Assembly: GCA_009911715.1 (NCBI GenBank)
Contig: CP047880.1
Coordinates: 186,001 to 250,000, forward strand
Origin: Methanomassiliicoccaceae archaeon DOK
GTDB lineage: Archaea > Thermoplasmatota > Thermoplasmata > Methanomassiliicoccales > Methanomethylophilaceae
Reading direction: 5' to 3'
Length of the DNA stretch: 64,000 bases
Shown here: positions 18,246 to 24,934 of the stretch, one piece after another
Position numbering within the stretch: the first letter of the stretch is position 1
How the letters are laid out: every line of letters starts with the position of its first letter
Notes under the pieces: generated by a model
What the model saw: only the letters and a program-made list of their open reading frames with translations
Databases searched by the model: none
Told to the model about the DNA's origin: nothing
Made by a program: the position numbers and the translations under genes

Positions 18246-18770
18246 TCAGGCTCCCTCGTAGACGATGAGGGAGTCCACGTCGTAGCCTTTGAGCTTCTCT
18301 CTGCCCTCGAGTCCAGCGAGCTCCATCACGAAGGCGACCTTGGCGACGACTCCGCCCTCCCTCTCGACGAGTTTGATGGCAGCCTCGACGGTGCCACCCG
18401 TAGCGATGAGGTCATCGATGATGACGACCTTCTGGCCGGGCTGGATGGCGTCTATGTGCATCTCCACCTCGGCGGTGCCGTACTCCAGATCGTAGGATTC
18501 GGAGATGGTCTCCCTCGGGAGCTTCCCTTTCTTGCGCACGAGGATGAACCCCTTGTTGAGGGCGTATGCGACGGGGGCCCCGAAGATGAAGCCCCTGGAC
18601 TCGGTCCCGACGACGTAGTCGAAGTCAATGTCCTTCACGAGGTCGATGAGGCCGTCGATGGCCATCTTGAATCCGTCCTTGTCGCTGAGGACGGTGGTGA
18701 TGTCTCTGAACAGGATTCCCTTCTTGGGGAAATTGGGGATCTCGGTAACATAGTCCCTCAATGCGGTCAT
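18246..18770 (-). CDS. apt: Adenine phosphoribosyltransferase
   Basis: The 174-residue type I phosphoribosyltransferase converts adenine and PRPP to AMP. The family PRPP-binding motif appears as VVIIDDLIATGGTVEAAI (about residues 118-135). The N-terminal IPNFPKKGILFRDITTVLSD and GTESRGFIFGAPVAY blocks are diagnostic of Apt. A TATA box TTTTTAAA (18801-18794) sits about 27 bases before the ATG, so the mRNA is probably leaderless. The AMP phosphorylase pathway encoded at 20.5-24.2 kb releases adenine, which this enzyme can return to AMP. Confidence 0.95.
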   Translation of the reverse strand: MTALRDYVTEIPNFPKKGILFRDITTVLSDKDGFKMAIDGLIDLVKDIDFDYVVGTESRGFIFGAPVAYALNKGFILVRKKGKLPRETISESYDLEYGTAEVEMHIDAIQPGQKVVIIDDLIATGGTVEAAIKLVEREGGVVAKVAFVMELAGLEGREKLKGYDVDSLIVYEGA

Positions 18771-20485: not shown

Positions 20486-21412
20486 GTGCAAGACATCATA
20501 GCCGAAACATCGGAGAAAATCCGCGACATGACGATCCGCGGTGCCGGCAGGATAGCACGTGCCGGAGCCGACGCGCTGGGCAGGTTCGCCGAAGGGTACA
20601 CGGGCAATTCGCTCGAGGCCTTCAGGGAGGACCTGGACAGGGCGACCGCCACAATCCTCGACTCCCGTCCCACGGCGGTGTCGCTCTGGAACGGGGTACA
20701 CTACACGGTGAAGGGCGTCGAGTCCGCCTCCAGCGTGGGCGAGGCCAGGGAACTGGTCATCACCAACGCCAGGGAGTTCTGCGAGAGGTCCGAGAAGGCG
20801 GTGGAGACCATCGCCCGCATAGGGGCCAAGAGGATTGAGGACGGGGACACCGTCATGACCCACTGCAACAGCAGCGCCGCGCTGGGAGTGATCGAGGAGG
20901 CCCACCGCCAGGGCAGGGAGTTCAGGGTGTTCGCCACCGAGTCCCGTCCGTGGAGGCAGGGGATCCTGACCGTCACCCAGCTGGCGGAGGCCGGGGTCGA
21001 CGTGACGATGATCATCGACAGCGCCGTCCGCTACGTCATGAACGACACCGACAAGGTGTTCGTCGGAGCGGACACCATCACCTCCCACGGGGCGGTGATT
21101 AACAAGATCGGCACCTCGCAGCTGGCCCTGGCGGCCCATGAGGCGAGGACGCAGTTCTACGTCTGCGGCGAGACCTACAAGTTCTCCCCGATGACGGTGT
21201 TCGGCGACATGGTGAAGATCGAGGAGAGGGAGACTTCCGAGGTCGTCAGGCCCGGGGAGATCCCCGAATCGGTGAAGATTTTCAACCCTGTATTCGACAG
21301 CACGCCGGCTCAGTACATAGACGCCATAATCACTGAGGTGGGCATGGTCCCGCCCACGGCGGTCTACGACATCCTGGTGCGCCAGCTCGGAGACGGGATT
21401 TTCAAGGAGTGA
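20486..21412 (+). CDS. Ribose-1,5-bisphosphate isomerase
   Basis: The 308-residue protein belongs to the eIF2B/MtnA-like isomerase family, in its archaeal R15P isomerase branch. It converts ribose 1,5-bisphosphate to ribulose 1,5-bisphosphate for RuBisCO. Catalytic residues are seen in MTHCNSSAALG (Cys) and MIIDSAVRYVM (Asp), and the N-terminal RIRGAGRIAR-like stretch (TIRGAGRIARAGADAL) is typical. The GTG start has a TATA-like TTATTATC (20456-20463) about 26 bases upstream and no ribosome binding site, suggesting a leaderless transcript. It is the first gene of the AMP-degradation operon. Confidence 0.92.
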   Translation: MQDIIAETSEKIRDMTIRGAGRIARAGADALGRFAEGYTGNSLEAFREDLDRATATILDSRPTAVSLWNGVHYTVKGVESASSVGEARELVITNAREFCERSEKAVETIARIGAKRIEDGDTVMTHCNSSAALGVIEEAHRQGREFRVFATESRPWRQGILTVTQLAEAGVDVTMIIDSAVRYVMNDTDKVFVGADTITSHGAVINKIGTSQLALAAHEARTQFYVCGETYKFSPMTVFGDMVKIEERETSEVVRPGEIPESVKIFNPVFDSTPAQYIDAIITEVGMVPPTAVYDILVRQLGDGIFKE

Positions 21413-21417
21413 GTGAA

Positions 21418-22653
21418 ATGGAGAACTTCTCATATCTGCACCTCGGCGAGCCCGAGGACCCTGACAGGTACGTGGTCTGCAAATACAGGGTGACCACAGA
21501 CCTTCCGATTGAGAAGGCCGCAGAGGCCATCGCCGCGGAGCAGTCCACCGGCACGTGGACAGGCATCTCCACGCTCGACCACACGGTCTTCGACCATCTG
21601 GGCGCGAGGATAACCTCCATCGAGGGGGACATCGTCACCGCCGAGTTCCCGGCAGACGACTTCAGCATCGAAGTGGGTTCCGTCCCGCAGATCCTCAGCG
21701 TCATCGCGGGGAACCTGTTCGGCCTCGGCGCCCTCAAGGGCGTCAGACTGGAGGACGTGACCTTCCCGAAGAGCATCCTGGAGCAGTTCAAGGGGCCGAA
21801 GTTCGGCGCCGACGGTCTCAGGGAGCGCCTCCATCGCCCGGAGAAGCCCCTCGTGGGAACCATAGTCAAACCCAAGATCGGTCTTTCGCCCCAGAAGACC
21901 GCCGAGTACGTCTACGAGGCCGGGGCCGGAGGGCTGACCAACTCCAAGGACGACGAGACCCTGGTGGACCAGACCTTCTGTCCCATCGAGGACAGGACGG
22001 TCGCGGTAGCGGAATCCCTTGACAGGCTCGAGTCGGAGGGCAAGTACATGATGCATGCCATAAACGTCAGCACCCGCGGCGACAAGATCGTCGAGCTGGC
22101 CGAGAAGGTCCAGGGCTGGGGCGCCAGGGAGATCATGGTCGATGTCATCACCTGCGGATTCGGGGCCGTCCAGGCCCTTGCCGAGGACCCGTCGATCAAG
22201 GTGCCCATCCACGTCCACAGGACGATGCACGGCGCGTTCACGAAGGATCCGCTCCACGGGGTCGCCATGCTGCCCCTCACGAAGCTCGTGAGGATGGTCG
22301 GAGGGGACGCGCTCCACATCGGGACGCTCGGAGTGGGCAAGATGACCGGCGCCAAGGCGGACGACGGCAACCTCCTCGCGTGCCTCGGTGACGACGTGCC
22401 CTACAGGCAGGTCATGCCGGTCTGCTCCGGAGGGGTCCACCCCGGACTGGTGGGCGAGATCGTCAGGCGTGCAGGCAAGAACGTTCAGATACAGGCGGGC
22501 GGCGGAGTCGCCGGCCATCCCGAGGGCGTCTGTGCGGGCGCCATGGGGATGAGCCAGGCTGTCGACGCGGCGTTCCTGGGCATACCCGCGGAGGAGTACG
22601 CCAAGGACCACAGGGAGCTCGCCATAGCACTCGACACATGGGGATCCAAATGA
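21418..22653 (+). CDS. rbcL: RuBisCO large subunit, type III
   Basis: The 411-residue archaeal RuBisCO carboxylates ribulose 1,5-bisphosphate to two 3-phosphoglycerates. Active-site elements are present: GTIVKPKIG, the carbamylated lysine in GGLTNSKDDE, HVHRTMHGAF, loop-6 lysine in GTLGVGKMTG, SGGVHPG and QAGGGVAGHPEG. The catalytic set is therefore complete. Type III enzymes work in nucleotide salvage rather than a Calvin cycle, in line with the neighbours. ATG 21418 is chosen because AAGGAG ends 8 bases upstream; a GTG at 21409 overlapping the previous stop is also in frame. Confidence 0.95.
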   Translation: MENFSYLHLGEPEDPDRYVVCKYRVTTDLPIEKAAEAIAAEQSTGTWTGISTLDHTVFDHLGARITSIEGDIVTAEFPADDFSIEVGSVPQILSVIAGNLFGLGALKGVRLEDVTFPKSILEQFKGPKFGADGLRERLHRPEKPLVGTIVKPKIGLSPQKTAEYVYEAGAGGLTNSKDDETLVDQTFCPIEDRTVAVAESLDRLESEGKYMMHAINVSTRGDKIVELAEKVQGWGAREIMVDVITCGFGAVQALAEDPSIKVPIHVHRTMHGAFTKDPLHGVAMLPLTKLVRMVGGDALHIGTLGVGKMTGAKADDGNLLACLGDDVPYRQVMPVCSGGVHPGLVGEIVRRAGKNVQIQAGGGVAGHPEGVCAGAMGMSQAVDAAFLGIPAEEYAKDHRELAIALDTWGSK

Positions 22654-24164
22654 AGCTGATAGTCAAGAACTACGACATAGATGCCTCGGAGCCGACGGTG
22701 CTCCTGCACGACAGGGACTGTCTCGAGATCGGGGTGAAGGAGAACGACCGCGTAAACATCTCCGGGGCGAGGTCCGCTGTCGCGCTGGTAAGCCGTTCGG
22801 ACACGCTCGTGGAGGAAGGCATCGTCATGATGCCGGCGCCCCTGATGTCCAAGTGCGGGGTGAGGGAGGGCGAGGAGGTCAACGTCGTCTACTGCCAGAA
22901 CCCGGACTCCGTCAGGTCGATCCGCAGGAAGATGGACGGCGAGAAGCTGTCCAAGGAGGAGATCGAGTCCATAGTCGTGGACATCCTCAACAACAAGCTC
23001 TCGAAGATCGAGATCTCCGCCTGGCTTACGTCCCTGTACATCAACGGGATGGACATCGACGAAATCGCGGACTTCACCAAGGCTATGGCCAACACCGGGG
23101 ACATCATCGAGTTCGACAGGGAGCCGGTGTTCGACTTCCACAGCCTGGGCGGTGTCCCCGGCAACAAGATCACGCCCATCGTCGTTTCGATCGTGGCAGC
23201 GGCGGGCATCATGATCCCCAAGCTCTCGTCCCGTGCCATCAGCAGCGCGTGCGGGACGTCCGACTTCGTCGAGACCTTCTGCAACGTGGAGATGGACGCA
23301 GACACCCTGAAGCGCGTGTCCGAGGACGTCGGCGGGGTGTTCGCGTGGGGCGGTTCGATGAACCTCGCCCCCGTGGACGACATGGTGATCAAGATCGAGC
23401 ATCCGCTCGGCATCAACCCCAGGGCGCAGATGCTAGCCTCGATCATGAGCAAGAAGGTCGCCGTCGGTGCGACCCATCTTCTGGTGGATGTGCCCACAGG
23501 ATCCGGGACGAAGGTCCCCACGATAGAGGACGCCAGGGTGTACGCCCGCGACCTCATGGATCTGGGGGAGAAGCTCGGCATGCATGTCGAGTGCGCCATA
23601 ACCTACGCCGACCAGCCCGTCGGGAACGCGGTCGGCCCCAAGCTGGAGGCGAGGGAGTGCATCAGGATCCTGGAGGGTAGCAAGCATCCTGCCAGCGTCG
23701 TCGAGAAGGCCTGCGACTGCGCGGGCATCATCCTCGAGATGGCAGGCATACCCAACGGGTCTGCCAGGGCAAGGGAGATCCTCGAGTCGGGAGAGGCCCA
23801 CAAGAAGTTCATGGAGATCGTGGTCGCGCAGGGCGGCAGGGCCGACCTGAAGTCCGACGACCTGGTTCCCGGATAGTACTCCGAGGACATCATCGCCACG
23901 AAATCCGGCTACATCCACTCCATCCACAACAAGGACGTGGTGGCAATCGCCAAGGCCGCAGGGGCGCCTAACGACAAGGGCGCCGGGCTGATGATCTACC
24001 TCAAGAAGGGCCAGAGGGTCGAGGCCGGCGAGAAGCTGTTCACGATCTACGCCGACAACGAGGCCAAGCTGAGACGTGCCAAGGAGACCGCCATGAAGTA
24101 TCCTCCCATCGTCATCGAGGGAATGCTCCTGAAGAGGGTCTCGTCGGTTCCTGTGAGGGGATGA
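22650..24164 (+). CDS. deoA: AMP phosphorylase with in-frame amber codon (probable pyrrolysine)
   Basis: AMP phosphorylase splits AMP and phosphate into adenine and ribose 1,5-bisphosphate. The N-terminal archaeal domain, the SLGGVPGNKITP motif and AWGGSMNLAPVDD are those of the pyrimidine-phosphorylase-like family. Codon 409 is TAG (23874-23876). The same frame continues for 95 codons with the family's C-terminal domain: SGYIHSIHNKDVVAIAKAAG, GAPNDKGAG and LFTIYADNEAKL. Read through, the protein has 504 residues, the normal length; stopping at TAG would remove this domain. No start codon lies between TAG and the first conserved residues. ATG 22650 overlaps the rbcL stop. Confidence 0.9.
23874..23876 (+). 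other. In-frame TAG codon within AMP phosphorylase
   Basis: The codon lies between GGA and TAC in an uninterrupted conserved frame. In Methanomassiliicoccales UAG can be decoded as pyrrolysine by PylS and tRNA-Pyl; those genes are not in this window. The position is at the entry to the C-terminal domain, on a loop where the family varies, so an inserted residue should be tolerated. Confidence 0.8.
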
Positions 24165-24934
24165 GGCCTAAACTGTACTTCACGGTGGACGCCGACCGCG
24201 ACGTAAACATCCCGATCCCGGGAAGCGTAGCGGCCGGGTCCATCGACCGCGGCTCGGGCACCGGGCCGCGCTTCTCGTCCTCCGAGAGGGGGATGCGGAT
24301 TCTGGCGGATCTGCTGGACGGTCTCGGCGTCAGGGGGACGTTCTTCATGGAGGGGCGCACCGCCGAGGTCACCGACTGCTCCTTCCTGGCGGGTCACTGC
24401 ATCGGCCTCCACGGATACGACCACGAGGACCTGACAGGCGCCCAGACCGGCGTCGTGCCCGATGTGGAGGCGGTCCTGGGAAGGGGATTCGACGCCGTGT
24501 CGGACGCCGTCTCCCATCCCACGTGCTTCAGGGCCCCGTACATGACCGCGGGTCCCGATATCCTCGAGGTCGTGCGCAGCCTGGGCATATCCGCCGACTC
24601 ATCTGTCTACACGCCCGTGGGGGGACCGACGGATCCCTTCGAGGTCGACGGCATGGAGGAGTACCCCGTTCCGAAGATGAGGGATTCCGCGGGCAAGACC
24701 ATCGCCGCGTACCTGTGGCCAATGCACGAGGGCCGCAGGGTTCCGTCGGACTACGTCCGCATGGCCGAGGGGCTGTCGCACCTCGTCCTAGCCACACACA
24801 CCTGGCACATGGTAGAGACGAGGGAGGGCGGCGTTATGGATGAGGTCTGGATCTCCGAAAACGCGGAACGCGTGAGGGTCGTCGTCGAGGGGATACTTGA
24901 CCAGGGGTTCGAGCCCTGCGTCATCGGGCAATGA
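24161..24934 (+). CDS. Polysaccharide deacetylase-like protein
   Basis: The 257-residue protein has the NodB-type fold. An acidic start motif LYFTVDADRD, a histidine pair in GLHGYDHEDL and RAPYMTAG correspond to the metal-binding and catalytic motifs of family 4 carbohydrate esterases. WHMVE near the C-terminus supplies the last histidine motif. There is no signal peptide, so it acts in the cytoplasm. Its ATG overlaps the AMP phosphorylase stop, which indicates cotranscription with the nucleotide-salvage genes. The substrate is unknown; it may be a sugar or a cyclic amide. Confidence 0.82.
   Translation: MRPKLYFTVDADRDVNIPIPGSVAAGSIDRGSGTGPRFSSSERGMRILADLLDGLGVRGTFFMEGRTAEVTDCSFLAGHCIGLHGYDHEDLTGAQTGVVPDVEAVLGRGFDAVSDAVSHPTCFRAPYMTAGPDILEVVRSLGISADSSVYTPVGGPTDPFEVDGMEEYPVPKMRDSAGKTIAAYLWPMHEGRRVPSDYVRMAEGLSHLVLATHTWHMVETREGGVMDEVWISENAERVRVVVEGILDQGFEPCVIGQ

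Follow-up and report, generated by a model that had tools for sequence, protein, structure and literature searches.

The AMP phosphorylase gene of Methanomassiliicoccaceae archaeon DOK contains a single in-frame TAG that was probably acquired by neutral amber capture. To judge from the sequence, and with a rough probability of 0.83, a CAG codon became a UAG that would be decoded as pyrrolysine (Pyl), giving a full-length protein in which Pyl has no special role. Amber drift is already known in the Methanomassiliicoccales and the AMP phosphorylase is, as is well supported, a new example of it and not a new kind.

The gene lies on the forward strand at positions 22650-24164 of the window, the 64,000-nucleotide stretch of DNA that was analyzed. 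Translation of this frame gave 408 codons, the TAG (codon 409, positions 23874-23876, forward strand), 95 further codons and the natural TGA at 24162-24164, with no frameshift; under the standard code the ORF ends at 23876. If read through, the gene has 504 codons. The read-through protein belongs to TIGR03327 by curated score along the full model (648 bits against a cut-off of 535, profile positions 2-500 of 500), and its 504 aa compare with 498-507 aa in close relatives. The Pfam C-terminal domain PYNP_C (residues 421-482) is located entirely 3′ of the TAG, in the part at 23877-24164 (forward strand) that holds the 95 codons and the TGA, and many columns beyond residue 409 are invariant in an alignment of 22 homologues. 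The per-codon coding score was 0.56 upstream of the TAG and 0.65 downstream. Since the stretch after the TAG is family sequence along its entire length, it is not a chance extension. The first in-frame ATG, GTG or TTG is found 20 codons past the TAG, and re-initiation would therefore drop family sequence. An earlier sequence-only reading had described the TAG at codon 409 followed by 95 codons, the normal family length, the conserved C-terminal domain and the absence of a start codon in the 60 bases past the TAG, and our results agree with it on each of these points.

When the read-through protein was modeled with AlphaFold (mean pLDDT 88, pTM 0.83), residue 409 fell in a loop right before the strand at 410-415, the first one in the C-terminal domain. 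AMP phosphorylases of the Thermococcus kodakarensis type (PDB 4ga4, 4ga5 and 4ga6, deposited under the title putative thymidine phosphorylase) match the same family over the full length (4ga5_B, E 3.3e-142), but at the position aligned to 409 they have a sense residue, within a non-conserved stretch.

Selection on the two parts of the gene was compared. The dN/dS ratios (Nei-Gojobori) after the TAG were 0.037 and 0.034 against the nearest orthologues, L007 and L008, and were similar to those before it (0.038 and 0.054, respectively). Of the changes unique to DOK, 43 upstream of the TAG are silent and 6 are replacements; downstream, 9 are silent and none is a replacement. The similar dN/dS and the lack of replacements past the TAG argue against a decaying gene. 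These comparisons indicate that the conserved family sequence past the TAG remains under purifying selection, although a very recent mutation would escape this test. No stable RNA structure was found 3′ of the TAG (folding z-score +0.35), and structure was weak at mtmB too; a downstream RNA structure is not required for UAG decoding (PMC4153887).

Matches to AMP phosphorylase were present in 139 of the 147 genomes of the order. Among the matches listed, some of which are partial, an internal TAG occurs in no other AMP phosphorylase of the order; the single TGA flagged inside each of those from genomes G113 and G042 is simply the natural stop codon. A scan of GTDB contigs for the 36-mer flanking the TAG found no second strain with it. 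All 29 aligned relatives have a sense codon at site 409. In L007 and L008 (95% and 94% identity) this is CAG (Gln), and in the other relatives it is AAG, GAG or CAG, with AAA, ATC, ATG and GAC occurring once each. The site ranks 63 of 504 by entropy. Enzymes of the MtmB, MtbB and MttB type keep Pyl at a functional position throughout the family; no such conservation was seen among the homologues listed in the order. The CAG in the nearest relatives suggests that Gln gave way to amber in this lineage only, at a variable site in a loop. Judged from the alignment and the structural model, the simplest origin of codon 409 would be a single step from CAG to TAG at a site that tolerates change.

The DOK genome is a single contig of 1,889,135 bases (99.79% complete) from the order Methanomassiliicoccales. 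A profile search of it found pylS (270 bits, cut-off 178), pylB (440 bits, cut-off 348; L036:11610-12665, forward strand) and pylD (203 bits, cut-off 150), all in one cluster. A pylC-like ORF is located between pylB and pylD and was assigned as pylC by position only. Immediately upstream of pylS is a candidate tRNA-Pyl gene (pylT) of 69 nt, with a cloverleaf-like fold, a bulged anticodon stem and a 7-nt loop, CTCTAAA, containing CTA; 11 further species of the genus carry this sequence with 100% identity. Neither ARAGORN nor Rfam picked up pylT in the DOK genome, and it was called from the position, the CTA loop and the conservation. PylS, tRNA-Pyl and PylBCD are all encoded, with the tRNA as a candidate and pylC placed by position. 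In-frame TAG codons in two mtmB genes and one mtbB gene of DOK served as internal positive controls. We also observed that pylB itself terminates in TAG without a coding extension, as is known from several Methanosarcinaceae (PMC2933860). TAG still terminates a few DOK genes, pylB included, and UAG is thus not an unambiguous sense codon.

The use of TAG was examined in 864 kb (46% of the DOK genome), sampled as stretches. The stop codons of 719 well-coding genes were TGA in 664, TAA in 44 and TAG in 11. Seven of the 11 genes "ending" in TAG continue into coding sequence; three of the seven are methyltransferases, and leaving these out the read-through ratio is 4/8. A coding extension in the same frame was seen in only 14 of the 664 TGA genes (Fisher p = 2.9e-9), and all 14 have a start codon at most 11 codons away, which matches the expectation for tandem genes sharing one frame. 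Such a bias towards TAG is not to be expected from sequencing errors or from random pseudogenes.

Besides the AMP phosphorylase, four non-methyltransferase genes in this 46% of the genome have an in-frame TAG. A hybrid cluster protein of the hydroxylamine reductase family (L054:1878-3422, G000:C1:1721881-1723422, reverse strand) has it at codon 245, where seven of the eight relatives examined have Glu (GAG or GAA) and one has Ala; this site is more conserved than that of the AMP phosphorylase. A CynX/NimT-like transporter (L045:927-2072, G000:C1:800930-802072, reverse strand) has it at codon 156, which is Trp (TGG) in two relatives. The other two are an MsbA-like ABC exporter (L093:7385-9175, forward strand), with the TAG at codon 461 within the ATPase domain, and a GNAT acetyltransferase (L091:1552-2109, forward strand), with the TAG at codon 58. 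Scaled from the 46%, a rough estimate for the whole genome is about 11 such genes, the AMP phosphorylase included, beyond the two mtmB genes and mtbB. Several multi-TAG "genes" called by coding score (L042:163, L053:16 and L093:19059) scored low and were discarded as probable shadow frames. An FAD-linked oxidase gene (L040:8186-9052, forward strand) ends in TAG with just the initial 53 of the 248 C-terminal domain positions covered; this is possibly a frameshifted gene.

The AMP phosphorylase gene is the third of a four-gene operon on the forward strand in which successive genes overlap by 4 nt. It follows a ribose 1,5-bisphosphate isomerase (20486-21412; TIGR00511, 392 bits, cut-off 314) and a type III RuBisCO homologue (21409-22653; TIGR03326, E 4.8e-110, with its 368 bits below the curated cut-off of 497), whose stop codon overlaps the AMP phosphorylase start. 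A polysaccharide deacetylase-like gene (24161-24934, a weak family match) comes last, its ATG overlapping the AMP phosphorylase TGA. The RuBisCO gene is directly upstream of AMP phosphorylase in 29 of the 29 relatives examined, and the deacetylase-like gene is downstream in 26 of them. The isomerase, type III RuBisCO and AMP phosphorylase make up the archaeal AMP-to-RuBisCO pathway, according to the citation of Sato, Atomi and Imanaka (2007) in PMC5241800. Because of the overlaps, ending translation at the TAG might also harm coupling to the downstream gene. An adenine phosphoribosyltransferase gene is found near the operon (window positions 18246-18770, reverse strand), and its product could return adenine from AMP phosphorylase to AMP.

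The explanation we favor is that the gene encodes what is predicted to be a functional AMP phosphorylase acting in the type III RuBisCO pathway, and that a C-to-T transition turned CAG (Gln) into UAG where the loop ahead of the C-terminal domain tolerates change. With a pyrrolysine system present and UAG nearly abandoned as a stop, we propose that tRNA-Pyl reads codon 409. The product would be a full-length AMP phosphorylase with Pyl in place of Gln, Lys or Glu and without a special role for it. This supposes Pyl as residue 409, efficient decoding of the UAG and expression of the pyl genes at the times when the operon is active, all of which we infer. We saw no sign that Pyl takes part in catalysis at this position.

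Another explanation, which we consider unlikely, is a recent nonsense mutation: UAG would mostly terminate, the 408-residue product would probably be inactive and a second AMP phosphorylase would cover the function. The TAG is confined to DOK among the matches listed, so a recent mutation is possible, and UAG does still end some DOK genes. An intact paralogue also exists (L037:9459-10961, reverse strand; G000:C1:414468-415961), 59% identical and scoring 606 bits against TIGR03327 (cut-off 535). However, it has other residues at positions that are normally conserved (SWTGATDLGP, for example, replaces AWGGSMNLAP), and neither a RuBisCO nor an isomerase homologue was found in the 20 kb around it, suggesting that its substrate may differ. 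Furthermore, the part after the TAG shows no decay, its frame and natural TGA are retained, and the pyl genes and amber methyltransferases make it likely that suppression of UAG takes place at least some of the time. An error of sequencing or assembly at 23874, with a C read as T, is slightly less likely still. It would need just one base substitution in a single assembly, and the nearest relatives do have CAG, but the assembly is one nearly complete contig, four more non-methyltransferase genes have in-frame TAGs, and the 664 TGA genes include no in-frame TGA without a nearby restart.

We give least weight to a selected role for Pyl in AMP phosphorylase, or to the amber codon as a switch tying AMP breakdown to pyl expression and methylamine availability. 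The TAG does stand inside an operon of overlapping genes, where a stop could lower translation of the downstream gene. Against this, the site is variable (Lys, Gln, Glu and others), relatives have no TAG among the matches listed, the model puts residue 409 in a loop and the other TAGs of DOK fall in unrelated genes. It is likewise very improbable that Pyl at 409, or the efficiency of read-through, controls the AMP-to-RuBisCO operon and makes salvage and the downstream gene conditional on pyrrolysine supply.

The sequence-only reading had taken UAG here as pyrrolysine and had named a genome search for pylTSBCD and an alignment of related enzymes at site 409 as checks. Both have been carried out, and with the amber methyltransferases, the other in-frame TAG genes and the continued selection past the TAG, decoding as pyrrolysine is well supported. 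Its further claim, that a core salvage enzyme depends on Pyl or is linked to pyl expression, is not supported, given the variable site, the DOK-only change and the intact second AMP phosphorylase. Nor would Pyl outside methylamine metabolism be new here, as 16 and 46 genes are already given in PMC4153887 and PMC5011839.

The 16 are predicted non-methyltransferase Pyl proteins of 'Ca. Methanomethylophilus alvus' (Borrel 2014, PMC4153887), a member of the same order in which TAG terminators are rare, as in DOK (1.6% in M. alvus); unlike in DOK, AMP phosphorylase is not in the list. That study also made the case that, where suppression is constitutive, amber mutations within reading frames become stable (PMC4153887). 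The 46 are genes of ISO4-H5 with an in-frame amber, methyltransferases included (PMC5011839); its genome is 1.938 Mb compared to 1.889 Mb for DOK. They include adenylate kinase, a gene of purine metabolism, but the main text names no AMP phosphorylase. In Methanosarcina acetivorans Thg1, the amber is translated as Pyl and is not essential for activity (Heinemann 2009, as described in PMC2933860). By that description, Thg1 resembles the DOK AMP phosphorylase as a housekeeping gene with an in-frame amber confined to one species, but Pyl has been physically observed in Thg1, while in the DOK enzyme it is predicted from sequence. No paper that connects AMP phosphorylase to pyrrolysine turned up; one broad review has both terms, once each. 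A 2025 paper in Science reportedly describes an archaeal code in which all TAG codons are pyrrolysine, which would further lower the novelty of the DOK case.

AMP phosphorylase adds a nucleotide-salvage enzyme to the Methanomassiliicoccales proteins that probably contain pyrrolysine, and it offers a clear probable ancestral codon, CAG, together with a test of selection past the TAG. It is also a warning that such genes would be split or truncated by standard annotation. The case supports the view that in this lineage UAG is on its way to becoming an ordinary sense codon, and with such drift the supply of pyrrolysine would matter beyond growth on methylamines.
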